A stretch of 64,000 nucleotides of DNA. It comes from Pseudochrobactrum sp. sp1633. GTDB lineage: Bacteria; Pseudomonadota; Alphaproteobacteria; Rhizobiales; Rhizobiaceae. Below, piece by piece: positions 43,775-52,350 of the stretch; the stretch's first letter is position 1; each line of letters starts with the position of its first letter. The position numbers and the translations under genes were made by a program. Below the pieces are notes generated by a model, which saw only the letters and a program-made list of their open reading frames with translations, was not told the DNA's origin and did not search any database. The stretch spans positions 1-64,000 of the forward strand of contig NZ_JARRAE010000007.1 of the NCBI RefSeq assembly GCF_030376605.1, in the 5' to 3' direction.

Positions 43775-44938
43775 TTACTCCGCTGCTTTTGTCACTGAAA
43801 CAGTCTGAGCCGGATTTTGACGGGCAGCCTGTTTCTGAACGAGGTCACGCGCAGCGCGGATATCAAGATCGCGGCTGACAAGACGCTCAACACCGGCACC
43901 CACATCGGCCAGCAGATGGCGATAGGATGTAACCGAGCGTGCAAAGATGTTATAGATAATAACGGCAGGAATAGCGGCAACAAGGCCGATAGCGGTTGCC
44001 AGCAGCGCCTCGGCGATACCAGGTGCCACAACGGCAAGATTGGTTGTCTGCGCTTCAGAAATCCCGATAAAGGAATTCATAATCCCCCAGACGGTTCCGA
44101 ACAGACCAACAAACGGGGCAACCGAACCGATGGTTGCAAGAATACCGGTGCCTTTGGCAAGACGGCGTCCTGCACCGGCTTCAATACGGCTGAGACGCGA
44201 GGAAACACGCTCTTTGAGCCCTTCCCCGCCGACATAAGCGGCAGCAGAGGCAGACTGCGAAACTTCTTCCTGAGCCGCCCGAACGAGATGCGCTCCGGGA
44301 CCACGGGTTTTCTCCAGAGCCTGCACAGCGGTAGCCAGATTGTCGGCATGCGACACTTCTTTCAGCGCGCGGCGGGCACGGCTGCGTGCACCGGCAATTT
44401 CAAGCGACTTTGCCAGCCATACTGTCCATGTTGCCAAGGAGGCAATGGCAAGGCCGATCATCACAGCTTTAACAACCCAGTCCGCCGCCATGAACATGCC
44501 CCACGGGGAAAGGTCATGCGGAATCTGCAAGCCGTTGTCAGCCGTGCGCATCGGTGTGGCAGCAGCAGGTTGTGACTGGTCGTTCTTCGGCGCAAGCGTA
44601 ACAGGCTGCGCTTCGGATGGTGTTTGTGAAGGCTGTGCGACCGGAGCAGGCTGAGTTGTCTGCGGTGTCTGAACCGGCTGTGACGGTGTGGTAGTGGCAG
44701 GCGCTGTCTGCGGTGCAGTTGGCTGCGTTACCGGAGCCTGCGTTTCCTGTGTTGGTTGTACCGCTTGCGGAGCAGGTTGTTGCGGCTGCGCTTCCTGTGC
44801 CATCGCTGGTGCAAAAGGCATCAATACACTATTACCAGCCAGAATTGCTGCAACTATGAATGCTGACAATCCCGCTTTAAAAGGGTTTGCTGACTTTGAT
44901 ACTGCCTTAACCACCGCTACGACCTCACTGCATTTCAT
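43775..44938 (-). CDS. exbB: Biopolymer transport protein ExbB with Q/P/T-rich extension
   Basis: About 387 residues. A signal-peptide-like segment (ending MPFAPAMAQ) is followed by a roughly 90-residue Q/P/T/A-rich stretch, then the MotA/TolQ/ExbB core with three membrane helices; [25 protein letters not shown] is the conserved part of helix 2. The start is uncertain: ATG 44938 lacks a ribosome-binding site, whereas GTG 44914 has GAGG eight bases upstream and still leaves a full signal peptide. Longer frames to 45061 are unlikely because they lack a site. Leads the iron-uptake energising operon. Confidence 0.92.
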
Positions 44939-45059
44939 TATCAGGGACAGTGCGGCCAATGCTTTTCCAGCCTGTGCAGAGTAAAATCTGCCCCACGATT
45001 GCGTGGTTTTGCTGAAATGACCCAGCGACTGCCTTTTCGGGTTCTGCAATACAACCATC

Positions 45060-45084
45060 AAACATGACTACGCAAGTCATGTTT
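45060..45084. promoter_or_regulatory. Perfect inverted repeat in the exbB leader
   Basis: AAACATGACT and AGTCATGTTT are 10-bp arms around ACGCA. The inner part fits TGA-N9-TCA, the loose pattern of the RirA iron-responsive operator, but a hairpin in the leader mRNA is an equally good reading. Confidence 0.55.
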
Positions 45085-45241
45085 TTAAAAAACCCGTCAT
45101 TCTGGTGTTATTTGGCCGGAAACCGGAACTTATTCACCAAAAGAAGTATTCCATACAGCGGCAAAACAATAATCGCGGCCATAATATACTTGTGAGCGCG
45201 GCTACAGCTCCGGTGAGTCGCCCCCAACCAATGCAGTTATG

Positions 45242-45270
45242 ATTATAAGCATAAAATCATAACATGACAA
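45242..45270 (-). promoter_or_regulatory. Sigma-70 promoter of exbB with overlapping dyad
   Basis: On the minus strand TTGTCA (45265-45270), 17 bases, TATAAT (45242-45247): close to consensus. A dyad TTATGATT (45237-45244) / AATCATAA (45255-45262) covers the minus-10 and spacer, a natural place for an iron-dependent repressor. Confidence 0.75.
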
Positions 45271-45327
45271 TTTTAAACAAGTTTGTCAGTTTTATCCGGC
45301 TTTTGCCCATTATAACAAGACTGACAA

Positions 45328-45352
45328 GGAACAATCATAAACCTGACGCATT
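45328..45352 (+). promoter_or_regulatory. Possible EcfG promoter, degenerate minus-10
   Basis: GGAAC (45328-45332), 17 bases, ATT (45350-45352). Same geometry as the three good EcfG promoters of this window but with ATT in place of GTT. It lies 69 bases before the small gene at 45421. Confidence 0.4.
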
Positions 45353-45420
45353 AAAGCCGCATAGAGTAGCGCATATCATTATTGACCGATGACAATGTCA
45401 TAATGCTCCGGAGACAGTAG

Positions 45421-45579
45421 ATGATGCACAAAGATATGCAGACCATTGAAACTGCCGCCCACACTGCCGTAGCGGGTGCCTACGAACCGGCACAACAGGA
45501 AACAGCTGTTTTACGCGCCGGTTTCTATGTGACCGCGGGTTGCATCATGATTGCAGCACTCATTCTGATGATTGCCTGA
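45421..45579 (+). CDS. 52-residue single-span membrane protein
   Basis: A short gene with a good GGAG seven bases before ATGATG. The product has a polar N-terminal half (about 1-32) and one C-terminal membrane helix (about 33-52, VTAGCIMIAALILMIA), the layout of a tail-anchored small protein. I do not recognise the family. Its position upstream of the EcfG-controlled DUF883 gene and a degenerate EcfG promoter suggest a stress-linked envelope protein (inference). Confidence 0.65.
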   Translation: MMHKDMQTIETAAHTAVAGAYEPAQQETAVLRAGFYVTAGCIMIAALILMIA

Positions 45580-45730
45580 CTAACGAGCACCTTCACATAT
45601 ATTCAATAACAGACGGCACAAACCCGCTCTGCCTGTCATCTTTGCACTTTTTGCACAGATCCGGCCACGAATTAACCTTGGCTGACGAATATCCGCGTGC
45701 GCCGCAATGCAGCTCTGGCGATAGTTTTGC

Positions 45731-45755
45731 GGAACCATTACCCTGAAGAGACGTT
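45731..45755 (+). promoter_or_regulatory. EcfG promoter of the DUF883 gene
   Basis: GGAAC (45731-45735), 17 bases, GTT (45753-45755), with C before the GTT: exact general-stress promoter of Alphaproteobacteria. The start codon lies 58 bases further on. Confidence 0.85.
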
Positions 45756-45813
45756 ACATTTCTGTACCGACATCAAATCTATGATTTACTGAACCAAGCT
45801 TCCGGAGGCATTA

Positions 45814-46143
45814 ATGGCTCGTGATACTAAAATCGTAAATGACGCTCAGGATGACAGCACGGCAGAATTGCAGGCGCAAATTGCTCAGCTCAAGGAAGAT
45901 ATTGCATCCATTGCGGCAACGCTGACAGAAATGGGCTCACGAAAAATCAATCAGGTCAAACAAGACGCTGCTGATGCCTATAATGATGTTTATGAGCAAG
46001 GTGAGGATGTTTTCAGCTCGCTCAAAGACAATGCATGTTCGCTCGAAGAGCAGGTTACAGATTATGTATATGAGCGTCCGATTACCTCGCTCGCTCTGGC
46101 GGCCGCCTTTGGCTACCTTGCCGCAGCCCTGACACGGCGCTGA
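45814..46143 (+). CDS. DUF883 / ElaB-YqjD family protein
   Basis: 109 residues: a long coiled-coil-prone N-terminal part (about 18-85) and a C-terminal membrane helix with ERPITSLALAAAFGYLAA, the DUF883 signature. E. coli relatives ElaB and YqjD anchor ribosomes to the membrane in stationary phase. GGAGG precedes the ATG. Behind an EcfG promoter and overlapping in organisation with the next gene, as yqjD-yqjE are in E. coli. Confidence 0.92.
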   Translation: MARDTKIVNDAQDDSTAELQAQIAQLKEDIASIAATLTEMGSRKINQVKQDAADAYNDVYEQGEDVFSSLKDNACSLEEQVTDYVYERPITSLALAAAFGYLAAALTRR

Positions 46144-46144
46144 T

Positions 46145-46609
46145 ATGCTGAAACTTTTCACACCAGTCATATCCGCCATTGTCGGCAGTGAAGTGCAGGC
46201 CGTAACGCAGCGTGCCAAACGCAGCGCCATTCTCTACACGATTATGGCGCTGGCATTGCTCACAGGTGCGTTTTTTCTGCTCATTGCAGTCTTTTTCTTT
46301 CTGATGATGAAGTTTGGCCTGATCATCAGCGCTTTGATTATAACGACTGCCTGTGTGGCGGTGGCAATCATTGCCTATATCGTCAACCGCATCATGGACA
46401 AAGCTGAAAAGCGCCGTCTGGAGCAAAGACGCGCCGCAATTGATACCAATGCAGCGCTGAGTGCCGCAGCGGTAGCGGCAGTACCGGTGCTTCTAAAAAA
46501 ACCACTCCTGACTATTGCGGTGCCGCTTGCCGGACTGATCGCCGTATCTTTGCTGTCACAGAAGAAAAAGCCTGAAGGCCCAAAAGGGAATACCAAAAAA
46601 CAAGACTAA
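46145..46609 (+). CDS. YqjE/holin-X-like small membrane protein
   Basis: 154 residues with two adjacent long membrane helices (about 30-57 and 60-83) and a third hydrophobic stretch near 118-140, ending in a Lys/Gly/Pro-rich tail. Resembles the Actinobacterial holin-X/YqjE proteins that accompany DUF883 genes. It starts one base past the preceding stop codon with no Shine-Dalgarno sequence, so it depends on coupling. The 'phage holin' label often given is misleading; there is no prophage here. Confidence 0.8.
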   Translation: MLKLFTPVISAIVGSEVQAVTQRAKRSAILYTIMALALLTGAFFLLIAVFFFLMMKFGLIISALIITTACVAVAIIAYIVNRIMDKAEKRRLEQRRAAIDTNAALSAAAVAAVPVLLKKPLLTIAVPLAGLIAVSLLSQKKKPEGPKGNTKKQD

Positions 46610-46647
46610 ATCTGACCGCTCTGCAAAGTTCAGTTCAACCAAAGCCC

Positions 46648-46708
46648 TAAAGCATTTCGCAGTCAAATTGCCTCATTTGACGAGCACGATAATGCAAAAC
46701 GCTCTAAG
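46648..46708. repeat. Dispersed AAAGCATTTCGC element
   Basis: TAAAGCATTTCGC followed by TCAAAT...ATTTGA arms and a right end ACGCTCTA; related to 10583-10622. It lies in the leader of the next gene, a few bases before its ribosome-binding site. Confidence 0.6.
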
Positions 46709-46718
46709 GAGAACATCA

Positions 46719-46955
46719 ATGACCAGCGCGACAAAAGCACAACTCGCAGAAATCCTCGCAGATATGTCTCTGACCAATCTGGATAAATCTGCTGCTGTAC
46801 TGAAACTTCAGGAAGATGCGCGCGATCTTCAGCGCGCTGCAACTGAAGGCGGCATGGATCCTGATGACGGACTCAATAAGGATCTGCGAGAAATAGAGCT
46901 TGCATTGGAAAAGCTCGGCGTCACCCCGGATCATACCGGCGCAGCCACATTGTAA
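46719..46955 (+). CDS. 78-residue hypothetical protein
   Basis: Starts at ATG 46719 behind AAGGAG; longer readings run into the repeat. Soluble, acidic and helical (MTSATKAQLAEILADMSL), with no cysteines and no membrane segment. Not recognised. Its neighbours are stress-related, but no EcfG promoter is visible directly upstream. Confidence 0.8.
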   Translation: MTSATKAQLAEILADMSLTNLDKSAAVLKLQEDARDLQRAATEGGMDPDDGLNKDLREIELALEKLGVTPDHTGAATL

Positions 46956-46959
46956 TCCT

Positions 46960-46997
46960 GCCCAACACCGTGCGGAAAAATCCGTGCGGTGTTTTCT
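46960..46997 (+). terminator. Terminator after the 78-residue protein gene
   Basis: AACACCG...CGGTGTT arms with G-U and inner CGGA/TCCG pairs around AAAA, followed by TTTTC. Confidence 0.75.
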
Positions 46998-47920
46998 CAG
47001 ACCGGACTGATATCCGTGTCTTTTCTTAAAGGCGCGAGCACTTTGAGGGCTGCCGGATGAATGCGGATATCAAGCTCCTTGGGCAAAGGCAGCAACTCTC
47101 CATCGAGCGACATATATTTATGCGGTTTATGATTGAGCATCTTCAGCTGCACTGAACGGGCATGTTCCTCTGCAATCGCCAGATTACTGCGCCATTGCCC
47201 GCGCAAAATATCCCAGAACAATTTGATCATACCGCTGACAGGTAAAGGCTTTGCCAGATAAAAACCCAGATGACCGGTCTGCACATCCGGCGCCACAGGC
47301 AGTGCACTATCTCCATAGGGATTATTGGAAACGGCGATGGCTGAAAAAACGCCTCGTATCTGTTTACCGTCAATAATCGCTTCCGCTTTTATACGCGGTA
47401 CATTTGTAAGCAATTGTCCCATAGCGCGAAAATTGGCCCAGATTTTACCTAAGCGTGATGCGTAGCTGTATTTTTCCCGATGTTTTACCAGCATCGGATG
47501 CAGCCCCACCGCCACCTGATGCACAAAAGCCTGCCCGTTACAGGTGCCGATATCAACGGCATGGATTTCAGCCTGAGCCAAGGCCTCAGCGGCTGCTGTA
47601 ATATTTTGCGGAATATTCAGGGAGCGGGCAAACAGGTTCATTGTACCGGCCGGCAAAACACCCAAAACCCTGTTATTTTGCCAGGCGAATGCGGCAGCTG
47701 TGGAAATTGTGCCGTCACCGCCGCCAGCCAGCAGCACATCACAAGAACTGTCTTCAGCGGCTTCCTGCAAAGCTGCAACAATACCATCACCATCCGTCAA
47801 AACATATTTCAGACTATGTCCGCGGGCTTCAAAAGCCGTTGTTGCGTCAGCAATAAACGCATCCATATCAGTTGTACGTAAAGTACCGCTCTGGCTGTTT
47901 AAGACGGCAATAATCCGCAA
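46997..47920 (-). CDS. Diacylglycerol kinase family lipid kinase
   Basis: 307 residues with the DAGK catalytic motif GGGDGTISTAA (about 66-76) and the downstream GTMNLFARSLNIP block, as in YegS/BmrU-type lipid kinases. Likely phosphorylates a membrane lipid. TTG start with GGAG six bases upstream. It follows ecfG on the same strand after 25 bases, so it may be co-transcribed with nepR-ecfG. Confidence 0.9.
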   Translation of the reverse strand: MRIIAVLNSQSGTLRTTDMDAFIADATTAFEARGHSLKYVLTDGDGIVAALQEAAEDSSCDVLLAGGGDGTISTAAAFAWQNNRVLGVLPAGTMNLFARSLNIPQNITAAAEALAQAEIHAVDIGTCNGQAFVHQVAVGLHPMLVKHREKYSYASRLGKIWANFRAMGQLLTNVPRIKAEAIIDGKQIRGVFSAIAVSNNPYGDSALPVAPDVQTGHLGFYLAKPLPVSGMIKLFWDILRGQWRSNLAIAEEHARSVQLKMLNHKPHKYMSLDGELLPLPKELDIRIHPAALKVLAPLRKDTDISPV

Positions 47921-47945
47921 AGAGATCTCCGCAAGCGTAAATTCA

Positions 47946-48494
47946 CTAAAATGACCGCAGGGTCACCTGCGAGGATTCTCCGTCAGGACCGTAATCAGAG
48001 TTCCCTTTAACATCCAGCAATTCCTGCAACCGCACGCGTGCACGGCTGACACGACTTTTAATGGTGCCCACCGCACATTCACAAATCTCCGCAGCCTCTT
48101 CATAGGAGAAACCGGATGCGCCGATCAGAATAATGGCTTCGCGCTGGTCATCAGGCAGCTCATTGAGTGCCTTGCGAAAATCCTGCAAATCGAGTGATCC
48201 GTATTGTGACGGATGTACCGCAAGACGTTCGGTGTAAAATCCGTCAGAATCCTGAATTTCACGGCCGCGCTTGCGCATCTGGCTGTAAAATTCATTGCGC
48301 AGAATGGTGAACAACCATGCTTTGATATTGGTACCCATTTCAAAGCTGTCGCGCTTGCCCCACGCTTTCATAATCGTGTCCTGCACCAGATCATCAGCTT
48401 TATCCTGCTGACCTGATAAAGACACCGCAAAAGCCCGCAGACCCGGTAAGGCCGCAAGCATCAGACGCTTGAATTCGTCCCTCTCCTCCGCCAT
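47946..48494 (-). CDS. ecfG: General stress response ECF sigma factor EcfG
   Basis: 182 residues of the ECF15 type: sigma region 2 at about 12-80 (QQDKADDLVQDTIMKAW) and region 4 at about 108-165 (ALNELPDDQREAIILIGASGFSYEEAAEICECAVGTIKSRVSRAR). It directs RNA polymerase to GGAAC-N16/17-GTT promoters, several of which surround it. It is held by NepR until PhyR is phosphorylated. It starts five bases after nepR, the family's canonical arrangement; called rpoE1 in Brucella. Confidence 0.96.
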   Translation of the reverse strand: MAEERDEFKRLMLAALPGLRAFAVSLSGQQDKADDLVQDTIMKAWGKRDSFEMGTNIKAWLFTILRNEFYSQMRKRGREIQDSDGFYTERLAVHPSQYGSLDLQDFRKALNELPDDQREAIILIGASGFSYEEAAEICECAVGTIKSRVSRARVRLQELLDVKGNSDYGPDGESSQVTLRSF

Positions 48495-48499
48495 TCCTC

Positions 48500-48757
48500 T
48501 TAATTCCTTGAACGAGAAGCAGATTGACGTTCAGCCTGATCCAATTTCTCTAAAAGATCAAGAAAACGATCAGGTATCGTCTCATCCTGAATGCTGGAAT
48601 AAAGAGCACGCAATTTAGAACCGATTTCCGTATTGGGTCCCAGTTCATCCCCTTTATTTAAACCGCCGGATCGCGGGCTGTTTTGCGCGTACTGATCGCG
48701 CGGTAATGAGGTCATGGCGTTATCTTGATCCTGAAGAGGTTTATTATTTTTCGTCAT
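48500..48757 (-). CDS. nepR: Anti-sigma factor NepR
   Basis: 85 residues. The conserved NepR core is IGSKLRALYSSIQDETIPDRFLDLLEKLD (given here as a signature at about 45-73), with variable flexible ends. NepR sequesters EcfG and is itself captured by phosphorylated PhyR. First gene of the nepR-ecfG pair, divergent from phyR. Confidence 0.94.
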   Translation of the reverse strand: MTKNNKPLQDQDNAMTSLPRDQYAQNSPRSGGLNKGDELGPNTEIGSKLRALYSSIQDETIPDRFLDLLEKLDQAERQSASRSRN

Positions 48758-48857
48758 CTCAATCGAATTCCGGTTATCGCAAGCGCCCGAGTTTCATCTG
48801 GTTGTTATACGGATTTATAAAACCCAGCCCGAATGAGACGTTCTATCGGTTTCATAA

Positions 48858-48880
48858 TGCAGGAGCGAATAATTAGTTCC
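48858..48880 (-). promoter_or_regulatory. Possible EcfG promoter of nepR-ecfG, degenerate
   Basis: On the minus strand GGAAC (48876-48880) is followed after 17 bases by ATT (around 48856-48858) instead of GTT. It would let EcfG amplify its own operon. Confidence 0.4.
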
Positions 48881-48888
48881 CAAACTCA

Positions 48889-48913
48889 GGAACAATTTTT
48901 ATAGTCAGCCGTT
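48889..48913 (+). promoter_or_regulatory. EcfG promoter of phyR
   Basis: GGAAC (48889-48893), 17 bases, GTT (48911-48913), 52 bases before the phyR start codon. Confidence 0.85.
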
Positions 48914-48964
48914 AGAACCATAAACAGGCTGTAATCCTATCGGCCCATATACATGGAGCATTCA

Positions 48965-49759
48965 ATGTCATTGTCCACGCGCATTGCACCTCATTTGCCT
49001 TATCTGCGTCGTTTCTCACGCGCAGTGACCGGCTCACAATCTGCCGGAGATGCATATGTTGCCGCAATTCTCGAAGCACTGATTGATGACATCTCGGTCT
49101 TTCCTGACTGCTCATCTGATAAGACAGCGCTCTACCGTCTTTATTCCAGTATCTTCGACCGCACTTCCATAGAAATTCCGGATACGGATTCAGATCTTTC
49201 ATGGGAAAAGCGGGCAGCCAATAATCTTGCATTGCTGACACCGCGCTCCCGTCAGGCTTTTCTGCTCGTATCCGTTGAGGGTTTTAACGAAAAAGAAGCG
49301 GCAGAAATTCTGAAAGAAGATGATGCCGGTTTCTCTGCCCTGCTATCAGAAGCTTCAGAGCAGATTTCCCGCCATGTCGCCACCCGCATCCTTATCATCG
49401 AAGATGAGCCGCTGATTGCGATGGACATTGAACAGATGGTGGAAACTCTGGGACATGAGGTTGTTGGCATTGCCCGCACGCACAAAGAGGCGCTCACGCT
49501 CTATCAGGCCGAAAAACCGTCAATGGTACTGGCAGATATCCAGCTGGCCGATGGTAGTTCAGGCATCGATGCCGTGAATGATATCCTCAAAACCGATACT
49601 ATCCCCGTTATTTTCATCACCGCATTTCCGGAGCGTCTTCTCACGGGAGAGCGCTCAGAGCCGACCTTCCTTGTCACCAAACCGTTCAATCCGGATATGG
49701 TGAAAGCCCTCATCAGTCAGGCGCTGTTTTTTGAAGAAGGCTCCCTCGCGCGGACATAA
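48965..49759 (+). CDS. phyR: Stress response anti-anti-sigma regulator PhyR
   Basis: 264 residues. An N-terminal sigma-like domain (about 1-130, including LTPRSRQAFLLVSVEGFNEKEAAEIL as the sigma-4-like part) mimics EcfG; a C-terminal receiver (about 140-255) carries the acidic E146-D147 pair, phosphorylation site D191 and the K of VTKPFN. Phosphorylation frees the mimic to take NepR from EcfG. GGAG six bases before ATG 48965; the ATG at 48953 is too close to it. Confidence 0.97.
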   Translation: MSLSTRIAPHLPYLRRFSRAVTGSQSAGDAYVAAILEALIDDISVFPDCSSDKTALYRLYSSIFDRTSIEIPDTDSDLSWEKRAANNLALLTPRSRQAFLLVSVEGFNEKEAAEILKEDDAGFSALLSEASEQISRHVATRILIIEDEPLIAMDIEQMVETLGHEVVGIARTHKEALTLYQAEKPSMVLADIQLADGSSGIDAVNDILKTDTIPVIFITAFPERLLTGERSEPTFLVTKPFNPDMVKALISQALFFEEGSLART

Positions 49760-49806
49760 ATCCCCCTCACAACAATCAGAATACCAGCCGTATCTGTGAA
49801 GCCACA

Positions 49807-49831
49807 GGAACCAAAACGCGGCCTGAGCGTT
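49807..49831 (+). promoter_or_regulatory. EcfG promoter of the DUF1328 gene
   Basis: GGAAC (49807-49811), 17 bases, GTT (49829-49831) with C before GTT; 85 bases before the start codon. Confidence 0.85.
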
Positions 49832-49915
49832 ACTTTTACAGGGAATGGCCTGAACACATACGGTCATTTTCTAAAGGCAGGAAACCATACCACCTGCCTG
49901 TAAGAGGAGGTTAAC

Positions 49916-50080
49916 ATGTTATACTATGCAGTCGTTTTTCTGATCGTAGCGATTATAGCCGGTGCGCTGGGTTTTGGTGGAATTGCCGGTGCATCTGCGG
50001 GTATTGCCCAGATTCTGTTTTATATTTTTCTGGGACTGCTGCTCTTGTCGCTTATCGCCAGCTTCATAAGGAAAGCATAA
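49916..50080 (+). CDS. DUF1328 (UPF0391) small membrane protein
   Basis: 54 residues with two hydrophobic helices, about 4-24 and 31-50, joined by [37 protein letters not shown] is the hallmark of the YtjA/UPF0391 family, widely under general stress control. GAGGAGG lies five bases before the ATG. Directly behind an EcfG promoter, between phyR and the HWE kinase gene. Confidence 0.93.
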
Positions 50081-50188
50081 ATGAAGCGTAACGACACGGA
50101 TAAACACCATCTTTCCGGGACGCGTGCTACGCGTCCCGCGCGTGTCTTCTACCGAACTATGTTTGCCCCTGATATTTTCCAGAGCTGA
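50081..50188 (+). CDS. Possible 35-residue peptide gene
   Basis: An ATG immediately after the DUF1328 stop codon opens a frame for a basic peptide (MKRNDTDKHHLSG, ending APDIFQS). AAGGA lies eight bases upstream. It spans the perfect hairpin at 50117-50137. It may be a coupled small gene or chance; no family is recognised. Confidence 0.3.
   Translation: MKRNDTDKHHLSGTRATRPARVFYRTMFAPDIFQS
50117..50137. terminator. Perfect hairpin after the DUF1328 gene
   Basis: GGGACGCGT-GCT-ACGCGTCCC: nine-base GC-rich arms without a following T-run. It may pause polymerase or protect the short mRNA's 3' end. Confidence 0.5.
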
Positions 50189-50208
50189 AGCAGAGAAAGC
50201 GCGCCCAT

Positions 50209-51282
50209 ATGGCTCCGACACCATCCATTTCAGGATATAGCAGCACCGGCCAGATCCGGTTACGCTCGATGTTGCGCGCCATCAGAAACAGCAATGTCTC
50301 CGTGTTTTATCAAATGCCGGATCTCAGCTATACATGGGCGGAGAACGTACCGGAATTCTGGCATCTGCCGTGGCAGGCAGGTATCAGCGAAGACGCATTG
50401 ATGCCTAAAGACATCGCCCAAAAGCTAACCGCTGCAAAAAACCAGTTGCTGACCACCGGGGATGCCCAGCGTCTGGAACTCTCGTTTCCGGACAAGAACA
50501 CCCCCCGCTGGTATGAGTTTTTTATCGACAGTGACAAAGACGAAAACGGCGGAATGATTGGTGTCGTTACCACGGCCGTTGAAATCAGCGAACTGAAGCA
50601 CCGTGAGCAGGTTTTGAAAATACTGCTGCGCGAGGTCAGTCACCGCTCGAAGAACCTGCTGGCGATTATTCAGAGCATTGCCATGCAGACCGCACGATAT
50701 TCCGGCTCGGTTGAGCAATTCCTGCAAAAATTTCGCGGGCGCATCTATTCCCTTTCCCATTCGCAGGATCTGGTTACAGATTCAAACTGGCATGGCGCAG
50801 ACTTTCGTGAGTTGCTGTGCTCACAACTGGAAAAATACATCCATCCGAAAGACCCGCGCCTGACCATTGAGGGCAAGGACGTCTATCTGTTTCCGGGTGC
50901 CGCTTTGCATGTCGGCCTTGCGTTCCACGAGTTGATTGTCAATTCCGCATCCTATGGCGCGCTTGCCTGTGAAAATGGCAGCCTGACAGTCTCGGCAGAT
51001 CTAGAGCCGGACGGCGAAGGGGAAATGGATTTGATTATTCATTGGAAGGAAGCACAATCCGGCAACGGCTCCGGCTGTCCGCCGGACGATACACCTGCCC
51101 ATGTCCTGAAAGATGAAGAAACATCAGATATCAAAACGAAAACGCATGAGACATCACGCTTTGGCAGCGCAGTTCTGCTGCGCATTGTTCCTCAGGCGGT
51201 CAGCGGCACAGCCTGCTACACGATCCATGATAAGAGTGTAGAGTACTTTCTGCGCATACCGCACCGGCACTTCGATTATTAA
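50209..51282 (+). CDS. HWE/HisKA_2-type sensor histidine kinase
   Basis: 357 residues, apparently cytoplasmic. A PAS-like sensor domain (about 20-130) precedes the dimerisation helix with phospho-acceptor H145 in LREVSHRSKNLLAIIQ. The N box is HELIVNSASYGAL and the W-x-E motif is IHWKEA, both typical of HWE kinases. After it, about 40 residues of acidic, charged sequence interrupt the region where a GGP loop is expected, before RFGSAVL. Position beside phyR suggests it phosphorylates PhyR (inference; PhyK/LovhK-type kinases do so in relatives). Confidence 0.88.
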   Translation: MAPTPSISGYSSTGQIRLRSMLRAIRNSNVSVFYQMPDLSYTWAENVPEFWHLPWQAGISEDALMPKDIAQKLTAAKNQLLTTGDAQRLELSFPDKNTPRWYEFFIDSDKDENGGMIGVVTTAVEISELKHREQVLKILLREVSHRSKNLLAIIQSIAMQTARYSGSVEQFLQKFRGRIYSLSHSQDLVTDSNWHGADFRELLCSQLEKYIHPKDPRLTIEGKDVYLFPGAALHVGLAFHELIVNSASYGALACENGSLTVSADLEPDGEGEMDLIIHWKEAQSGNGSGCPPDDTPAHVLKDEETSDIKTKTHETSRFGSAVLLRIVPQAVSGTACYTIHDKSVEYFLRIPHRHFDY

Positions 51283-51356
51283 GAGCCCTGTCGCATCACA
51301 ACCTCTGCCGCAACCTGCCGCAGAGCGCTTTGTTTGATGCATTTCAAATCATTAGA

Positions 51357-51480
51357 CATAAAAATAGCGCGCCCCGGAACCTGAGCTCCGTGAGCGCGCG
51401 GACCGTGGAATAGGGGGCGTACCCGCGGTCGGTGAAAGGCCGAACTGTGAGGGGGCGGAAAGTCAGCCTTTCACAAGGTT
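51357..51480 (-). ncRNA. Candidate small RNA with two C-rich hairpin loops
   Basis: Minus strand, ending at TATTTTTATG. Hairpin 1 has perfect GTGAAAGGC/GCCTTTCAC arms (51432-51474) and exposes CCGCCCCCTCAC. Hairpin 2 has GACCG/CGGTC arms (51401-51430) and exposes ACGCCCCCTATT. A terminator stem GCGCGC...GCGCGC (51367-51399) with inner CGGA/TCCG follows. The architecture recalls the C-rich-loop sRNAs of Alphaproteobacteria that bind Shine-Dalgarno sequences (alpha-r14/CcsR types). The 5' end is not defined. It could instead be the 3' UTR of the fur-like mRNA. Confidence 0.6.
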
Positions 51481-51554
51481 CATAACGTGCATGTCAAAAA
51501 AAAGTTTCACACGAAATCGCATTATTTGAAAATAAATTCTGTATGCCCGTGCAG

Positions 51555-51965
51555 TTATTTTTTAATTTTGCGGCCGTAGAGCTCAAACCGGTGATGAATG
51601 ATTTCATATCCCAGTGAGCGGGCAATTTCTTCCTGCAATTTCTCGATCATTTCCGAGTGAAACTCAATCACATCACCGGTTTCCATATCTATGAGATGAT
51701 CATGGTGCTGATTGCCTGCCTGCTCAAAGCGGGATGGTCCGCCGTCAAAGGCATGACGGTGAATAGCGCCCTGCTCTTCAAGCAGTTTCATTGTCCGGTA
51801 CACAGTCGATAAGGAAATACTGTTGTCGATCTCCACCGAGCGGCGGAAAATCTCCAGCGCATCGGGATGGCCGTCAGTCTGGGAAAGAATGTCGAGAATC
51901 ACCCGCCTCGGCCGCGTAATCCGCACGCCCGCGTCCCGAAGCTGTTTTTCGTAATCATTTTTCAT
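51555..51965 (-). CDS. Fur family transcriptional regulator (Mur/Fur-like)
   Basis: About 136 residues from ATG 51965 with GGGGA seven bases upstream; the frame extends further but without family sequence. Winged helix [29 protein letters not shown] and [18 protein letters not shown], then the metal-sensing [23 protein letters not shown]. The last block and the ending [11 protein letters not shown] match rhizobial Mur/Fur, which in this order mostly senses manganese. A C-x2-C zinc site is absent, as usual for that branch. Confidence 0.9.
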
Positions 51966-52350
51966 TATTAATTCCCCATAGAGCCTAACACTGTGCCCTA
52001 AACACAGCGCCAAACGCAATTGCGGGTGAAACACATATAATAAAGTCAGCACCATCATCCGGTGCCGACCTATGATGACTTCAGAGATACGTTGTCAGCA
52101 CTTTTGCAAAAGTTCTGACACAGGTCAAATACAAGCCGAAATGAAGAATCTCTGCTATCTGCAATTTATAAATGAATAACGGTCAGGCAAAGCCCTGATC
52201 CGGCCAGACTATCGCTATGTCACAGTTTATCCCGTACTTATATAAGTTCGGAGATAAACCCTGAGAGAAGCTTGGATATATATCACCTGAATAACAAAAA
52301 GCTCCGCACCGGCCACAACCGGATGCGGAGCTTTTTAATAAAACCGAGAC
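51966..52350. other. Gap between the Fur-like gene and the DUF6476-like gene
   Basis: No gene is supported in this 385-base stretch. It contains the terminator at 52296-52336 and presumably the promoter of the Fur-like gene near 52030-52060, where TTTATTATATG occurs on the minus strand without a clear minus-35. Confidence 0.45.
52296..52336. terminator. Terminator of the DUF6476-like gene
   Basis: AAAAAGCTCCGCA and TGCGGAGCTTTTT arms with an inner CCGG/CCGG pair; on the minus strand it follows the gene by 15 bases. Confidence 0.9.

Follow-up and report, generated by a model that had tools for sequence, protein, structure and literature searches.

The 64,000-nucleotide stretch of Pseudochrobactrum sp. 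sp1633 DNA analysed here (the window; positions 1 to 64,000 of contig NZ_JARRAE010000007.1) carries genes for the anti-anti-sigma factor PhyR, the anti-sigma factor NepR and the ECF sigma factor EcfG. Judging from sequence and its conservation, we put at roughly 0.85 the probability that these form the canonical general-stress-response switch of Pseudochrobactrum, with EcfG promoters at phyR, at a DUF1328 gene and at a DUF883-like gene, and with CATT versions of the promoter at nepR-ecfG. As a stress-response hub the locus is ordinary and well conserved, a further example of the known PhyR-NepR-EcfG kind. Within it the promoters of phyR and of nepR-ecfG are arranged back to back, their -35 boxes separated by 8 bp (48881..48888), and a near-fixed gap at this place is kept in many families.

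The phyR gene (48953..49759, + strand) is divergent from nepR (48500..48757, - strand) and ecfG (47946..48494, - strand). PhyR matches the models for its sigma-like domains and receiver (PF22029, PF22233, PF00072) above their cut-offs and the PRK09191 PhyR family of NCBIfam at 377 bits (cut-off 240), and it is the one PhyR match at E 1e-45 or better in this genome of 3.89 Mb; among named genomes, Pseudochrobactrum saccharolyticum, P. kiredjianiae and P. asaccharolyticum have PhyR proteins 91-94% identical to it. NepR is the sole match in the genome to its Pfam model (PF18557, 61.2 bits against a cut-off of 25.7) and scores below the cut-off of the NCBIfam NepR model (25.7 vs 100). The ecfG product matches sigma regions 2 and 4 of Pfam and PRK12516 and PRK12547 of NCBIfam, all above cut-off, and it is assigned as EcfG because these are sigma-factor models (the latter two named only as sigma factors) and because its gene lies beside nepR. 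There is one clear EcfG in the genome, the next ECF match being 37% identical. Nearby is an HWE-family sensor kinase (50209..51282, + strand; PF07536, 87.2 bits against 22.8) with an HRxxN motif that reads HRSKN in the translation, and it is a probable input to PhyR. An earlier sequence-only reading of this DNA had grouped nepR-ecfG and the kinase into one neighbourhood, which both the family assignments and synteny support.

EcfG-type promoters in the window

Three exact copies of GGAAC-N16-CGTT, all on the + strand, precede the DUF883-like gene (45731..45755), phyR (48889..48913) and the DUF1328 gene (49807..49831). From their placement and conservation these are very probably EcfG promoters, and EcfG very probably drives its own activator phyR, as the sequence-only reading had proposed. 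That reading had listed the three sites as GGAAC-N17-GTT in the right orientation, 50-85 bases before a gene. The sites are present and each faces a gene, but the distances from motif to start codon are 58 (DUF883-like), 39 (phyR) and 84 (DUF1328) bases. A scan of positions 44000-52000, allowing N16 or N17 and at most one change, returned these three sites and six more, four of which (44112, 50545, 51166 and 51484, all on the minus strand) lie inside open reading frames (ORFs) or face no gene start. The remaining two, both GGAAC-N16-CATT, had been overlooked in the sequence-only reading, as had the back-to-back geometry: an EcfG-like promoter with a variant -10 box before a 52-codon ORF (45328..45352, + strand), and an EcfG-like promoter of nepR-ecfG (48856..48880, - strand). 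Since the latter faces nepR-ecfG, EcfG probably also drives itself and its anti-sigma factor. The same scan found no EcfG-type site before the HWE kinase or a nearby lipid kinase gene.

Across six aligned Pseudochrobactrum genomes, counting that of the window, both boxes of each of the five well-placed sites and the spacing between them are preserved throughout, in intergenic stretches of which only 23-55% of columns are invariant. All 25 bases of the phyR site are identical in the six genomes, and an invariant spacer is more conservation than recognition by EcfG would seem to require. A weak sigma-70-like match (TTCCCA-17-TATAGT, 48877-48905, 9/12) overlaps the phyR promoter and is perhaps a basal promoter.

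Conservation of the promoters beyond the genus

We extended the comparison to 80 named loci recovered by a PhyR search, in which sites were sought within 300 bp upstream of each gene and a reversed string served as control; synteny counts cover all 80 loci, and locus-by-locus places are available for 37 of them. The neighbourhood is kept in Brucella-, Ochrobactrum- and Falsochrobactrum-labelled loci and partly in Devosia and Mesorhizobium, with the lipid kinase in 29 of 80. An exact site lies upstream of phyR in 71/79 loci, of the DUF1328 gene in 46/48 and of the DUF883-like gene in 38/60; the corresponding figures are 21/64 for the HWE kinase, some of whose sites may be those of the DUF1328 gene, 7/29 for the lipid kinase and 4/10 for a 78-residue protein. 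Five control genes (Fur, an unnamed 160-residue protein, RluD, ExbB and ExbD) have an exact site in 0 of 106 cases together, and the reversed string occurs exactly upstream of no gene in these loci. This pattern provides strong comparative evidence for function of the phyR, DUF1328 and DUF883-like sites. Among the six loci with the 52-codon ORF, five have a one-change site upstream, against one for the reversed string.

In five Devosia-labelled loci (L079, L080, L084, L088 and L099) no nepR-side EcfG-type promoter with at most one change is present in the 450 bp before phyR; L079, L080 and L084 carry NepR and EcfG in the synteny survey. Control of the anti-sigma factor is possibly different in these loci.

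Distribution of the motif across the genome

The bare pattern GGAAC-N17-GTT is only mildly unusual in the window and is weak evidence: there are five matches against 1.37 expected, at least five occur in 4 of 100 shuffles, and the two matches other than those described above (9317 and 52723, both on the - strand) end in GGTT. An excess of the motif was sought genome-wide and found neither here nor in five genus relatives. Because the bare motif is weak and lacks such an excess, the promoter call rests on position and conservation.

Position was evaluated by a greedy ORF rule, with 29 reversed-pattern sites as control (30 of the 48 places were taken and one was not locatable). Nine of the 36 exact sites in the genome are intergenic before a gene, 24 are inside an ORF and three fall in neither class, compared with one, 28 and none for the control. 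By position and product, about 13 of the 36 look genuine in our own reading, picked after the fact. These are the three described here together with sites before genes for DUF892, MgtC-like, ferritin/Dps-like, lipocalin-like, transglycosylase-associated-like and DUF982 proteins, a second DUF883-like protein, two unnamed proteins and an RpoH-type sigma factor (NCBIfam PRK07500 sigma-32, 472 bits against a cut-off of 315). The Pfam matches among these candidates were obtained with N-terminal parts of the proteins; for the MgtC-like and transglycosylase-associated-like proteins the scores do not reach the curated cut-offs.

The sequence-only reading had suggested a whole-genome scan to see whether the local density is unusual. 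There is no overall excess; the simulated probability that three of 36 random sites fall within 4,101 bp anywhere is 0.023, and for three of 13 plausible sites it is 0.0008. The three-promoter cluster is thus probably real, yet it is the hub of a scattered regulon; the description of the locus as self-contained does not hold, because the same motif precedes unlinked genes, among them the dps-like, rpoH, lipocalin, DUF892 and second DUF883-like genes. Three site loci without a clear gene have no Rfam match at gathering scores; L006 gave a DUF982 match. At the exact EcfG-type site of locus L010 (G000:C7:65753-65777), all 25 bases including the spacer are identical in at least four genus relatives. 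No convincing gene follows this site and Rfam gives no match for it; it is possibly the promoter of an unannotated stress-induced small RNA or ORF.

Several counts speak against the promoter assignments, some of them in favour of a competing account in which the sites would be random occurrences of a short motif. The exact motif occurs 36 times in the genome against 48 for the pattern read backwards, and in the five genus relatives 34, 37, 41, 42 and 36 times against 51, 49, 39, 65 and 43; most of the 36 sites, as noted, are inside ORFs. On the nepR side a site with at most one change lies within 300 bp in only 50 of 79 loci (control 5/79), and once a change is allowed the reversed-string control is no longer empty, the HWE kinase for example giving 8/64 against 25. 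Loci of the Brucella/Ochrobactrum group have no exact site in the 300 bp before the DUF883-like gene, although one has a one-change site. Chance nonetheless seems very improbable as an explanation, given that the sites are intact throughout the genus and recur upstream of the same genes in the named loci while the control genes have none. Position and conservation rule it out for the phyR and DUF1328 sites; conservation of the 52-codon ORF site is seen within the genus.

By the mechanism known for such loci, one or more kinases would phosphorylate PhyR under stress, PhyR would bind NepR, and EcfG would be freed. Freed EcfG would then bring RNA polymerase to GGAAC-N16-CGTT and GGAAC-N16-CATT promoters. 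Of these, the three exact ones, whose sequence and conservation are observed, would act at phyR, at the DUF1328 gene and at the DUF883-like gene together with the holin-like gene next to it; the CATT versions, probably weaker, would act at nepR-ecfG and possibly at the 52-codon ORF.

Back-to-back geometry of the phyR and nepR-ecfG promoters

The spacing of the two central promoters is near-fixed in a large set of loci. Both promoters are found in 72 of 81 loci (the 80 named and the window), with a gap between the -35 boxes of 6-10 bp in 55, 19-21 bp in 16 and 98 bp in one; this count took the smaller gap whenever candidate pairs tied and admitted only gaps of 0-150, so that it leans to small gaps. 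The 19-21 bp gaps are mostly from one clade, the Brucella/Ochrobactrum/Falsochrobactrum-labelled loci. The -10 box is CGTT on the phyR side in 68 of the 72 and CATT on the nepR side in 70.

A wider survey covered the order, which we take to be the Hyphomicrobiales. PhyR was found in 149 of 249 genomes, and 130 upstream regions were taken by choice rather than at random, those omitted being mostly close relatives; 17 family relatives, five of them of the window's genus, bring the total to 147. Here, and in the survey outside the order, a pair required exact GGAAC boxes, -10 boxes with no more than one change apiece and a gap no smaller than -5, and neither for this count nor for the permutation below was the gap used for choosing pairs. 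NepR is divergent in 130 of the 147 PhyR loci, and 83 of these have a qualifying pair, with a gap of 7-10 bp in 57 (68.7%) and none at 11-18 bp; without the five genus relatives the figure is 52 of 78. The leaders are far more variable, the median absolute deviation being 14 for the distance from the phyR box to phyR and 37 from the nepR box to the NepR match, against 1 for the gap. When leaders are permuted among loci, a 7-10 bp gap appears in 3.3% on average and 15% at most. At least one member with a 7-10 bp gap is found in 16 of 20 families.

When the gap was left free between 0 and 30 bp in pattern searches, it was 7-10 bp for 35 of 43 hits at phyR but for only 8 of 63 hits in other parts of these genomes, close to the uniform expectation of 4 in 31; the phyR hits are not independent of the 83 loci. 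Chance dyads elsewhere in the genomes have no preferred gap. Outside the order, 28 of 44 genomes with PhyR were taken, and 21 have a divergent NepR, ten with a countable pair: six gaps are exactly 8 bp, one is 6, and the others are 22, 28 and 40 (a locus with a pair at gap 107 that lacks a divergent NepR was left out). Four of the 11 divergent loci without a countable pair have overlapping pairs, and with overlapping pairs counted, 21 of 33 families in the two surveys have a member at 6-10 bp. In two families outside the order, f40 (G292 and G194; -32/-33) and f55 (G303 and G077; -27), the promoters overlap face to face in 2/2 genomes each. We claim no second class of overlapping arrangements at -27/-28 bp, since a CC directly after GTT, expected about once in 16 cases, produces them almost automatically, and 8 of 105 pairs is near that rate. 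Helical phasing of the larger gaps (~20 and ~30) is not claimed as significant either, the Rayleigh values lying between 0.02 and 0.15 for the different periods and ranges tried.

The near-fixed spacing is thus an observed pattern, and a function for it is our inference. Judging from polymerase footprints, a gap of 8 bp would place each -35 box under the upstream part of the other polymerase, with predicted starts about 70 bp apart. Because the gap is kept in many families while the leaders change, the promoters may be coupled: a polymerase at one could hinder or otherwise influence the other, which is much less certain than the rest of the scheme, and the pair could thereby set the output ratio of the activator PhyR to NepR/EcfG. 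We tentatively propose, at somewhat less than even odds, that in much of the Alphaproteobacteria this is a composite promoter, in which two EcfG promoters are locked about 8 bp apart (in some lineages about 1-2 helical turns more) so that both sides are not freely usable; polymerase competition or contact would set the PhyR : NepR/EcfG ratio and perhaps its noise, and unequal -10 boxes (CGTT vs CATT) would tune the bias in some lineages.

There are reasons for caution about this proposal. The geometry is not universal, as 26 of the 83 loci have a gap other than 7-10 bp, 47 of the 130 nepR-divergent loci lack a pair of the required form, and some loci have overlapping pairs. The asymmetry of the -10 boxes is not a class-wide rule and a bias to phyR is not general: among the 83 pairs CGTT on both sides is the commonest state (39), followed by CGTT only on the phyR side (26) and only on the nepR side (10). 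A class-wide CATT/CGTT rule was rejected, the exact pattern being found in 3 of 289 class genomes, namely the window and two with gaps of 16 and 18 that we take for chance. For this genus a bias is nonetheless suggested by analogy. EcfG of Sphingopyxis transcribes a CATT promoter, and a change from CGTT to CATT lowers transcription in vitro (PMC7083833); taken together with competition between bidirectional promoters in E. coli, discussed below, this suggests a pair that would favour phyR over nepR-ecfG.

That the gap is simply inherited and has no function is an account we consider possible and only slightly less likely than the composite promoter. The loci look orthologous, and gaps agree within 1 bp in 65% of same-family pairs compared with 38% between families; common ancestry may account for some of the constancy, which counts against our proposal. 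On the other side, same-family leaders agree within 1 bp in only 15% (phyR) and 3% (nepR) of pairs (5% and 1% between families), the sequence in the gap between the -35 boxes is not conserved, and the gap recurs outside the order. The dyad GTTCC-N8-GGAAC might instead be the operator of a dimeric regulator and not two promoters, as its two halves form an inverted repeat, spaced almost constantly, and the scan output has it as a stem. This is quite unlikely: a CGTT- or CATT-type box accompanies each half at 16-17 bp, and gaps of 7, 8, 9, 10, ~20 and ~30 bp all occur, unlike in a rigid dimer site. A different role for the CATT box, also improbable if a little less so, is that it insulates the core operon from a second EcfG. 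In reporter results, R. etli EcfG2 uses the phyR promoter and not the ecfG1 promoter (PMC3892343), a selectivity that by analogy could reflect such a box difference, and CATT is prevalent on the nepR side in the 81-locus count. Against insulation, this genome has one clear EcfG and keeps CATT all the same.

Comparison with known systems

The locus does not differ in kind from the PhyR-NepR-EcfG loci of Sinorhizobium (rsiB1/rsiA1-rpoE2) and R. etli (phyR/nepR-ecfG1), with which it has in common the proteins, the divergent layout, sigma-dependent promoters at both units and an HWE-type kinase nearby; here the DUF883-like gene with its holin-like neighbour and the DUF1328 gene have promoters of their own within 4 kb. 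EcfG promoters on both units are general (PMC4814048, PMC8103513), and start sites lying behind RpoE2 promoters are reported for both rsiA1 and rsiB1 of S. meliloti (PMC3616915). A promoter of the GGAAC-N16/17-CGTT type likewise lies before both units in the window, exact at phyR and with one change (CATT) on the nepR side.

The bidirectional promoters of E. coli (Warman et al., PMC12825309) are similar in having two opposed promoters for which polymerase may compete. There, part of the -10 element is common to both directions; a strongly active side represses its opposite and reduces noise, though no competition was seen at basal activity. No such pseudo-symmetric shared core is found here: the cores are separate, with the -35 boxes on the inside, 8 bp apart, and the -10 boxes on the outer flanks.

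Divergent promoters of unequal strength that are near enough for polymerase interference are found in phage lambda, as PR and PRM. The overlapping divergent Pc/Pr promoters of plasmid pLS20 are likewise unequal and close enough for interference (PMC4207663). Both pLS20 and lambda employ a dedicated DNA-binding regulator, whereas here one sigma factor, encoded by one of the two units, would serve both promoters. In the open-access literature we did not find a fixed spacing of the phyR and nepR promoters described.

Other features of the locus

To the left of ecfG, the 52-codon ORF (45421..45579, + strand) encodes a product with a hydrophobic C-terminus and no Pfam or NCBIfam match, 75-85% identical in five genus relatives and 42% in one Mesorhizobium-labelled locus. 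The next two genes had been described as a DUF883 pair, for which there is only partial support. The small protein of 45814..46143 (+ strand) has no Pfam DUF883 match, and its DUF883-like name, taken from the sequence-only reading, is presumptive; the gene that follows on the same strand (46145..46609) encodes a membrane protein with a below-threshold match to holin superfamily III. Beyond these are the 78-residue protein (46719..46955, + strand), without a family match in the profile search but kept in the genus alignment, and the YegS/diacylglycerol-kinase-like lipid kinase (46997..47920, - strand; PF00781, E 3.9e-22). A near-consensus sigma-70 promoter (11/12; 45270-45242, minus strand) faces an ExbB-like gene.

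On the other side, the DUF1328 gene (49916..50080, + strand; PF07043, E 4.2e-15) encodes a small membrane protein. The open-access literature search found no paper, among the matches listed, mentioning DUF1328 together with EcfG and 'general stress response'. A GC-rich inverted repeat (50116-50138) lies between this gene and the kinase, and its arms are kept and its loop changed in the six genus genomes. Lacking a T run, it is not in the terminator scan output; it might mark the end of the DUF1328 transcript and separate the kinase from the DUF1328 promoter. Rfam gives nothing at gathering scores in 44900-52100.

Two observations concern the distribution of the switch. Three genomes of the same family as the window, each at least 96% complete (G010, G013 and G018), have weak PhyR matches, the best at E 4e-5 to 2e-7 where relatives give 1e-77 or better, and have apparently lost the switch or carry a strongly diverged form. 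A record titled Bacillus subtilis SK6B4 (L063) encodes a PhyR 91% identical to that of the window in the same synteny, and is evidently a mislabelled Pseudochrobactrum.

Implications

The local regulon is as specialists would expect, and the conservation of the DUF1328 and DUF883-like promoters makes these genes candidates that can be tested as members of a core stress regulon. If the spacing of the phyR and nepR-ecfG promoters is functional, it would bear on a question left by the positive-feedback model, namely how inhibitor and activator are kept in a usable ratio when the sigma factor that they control drives the genes of both.

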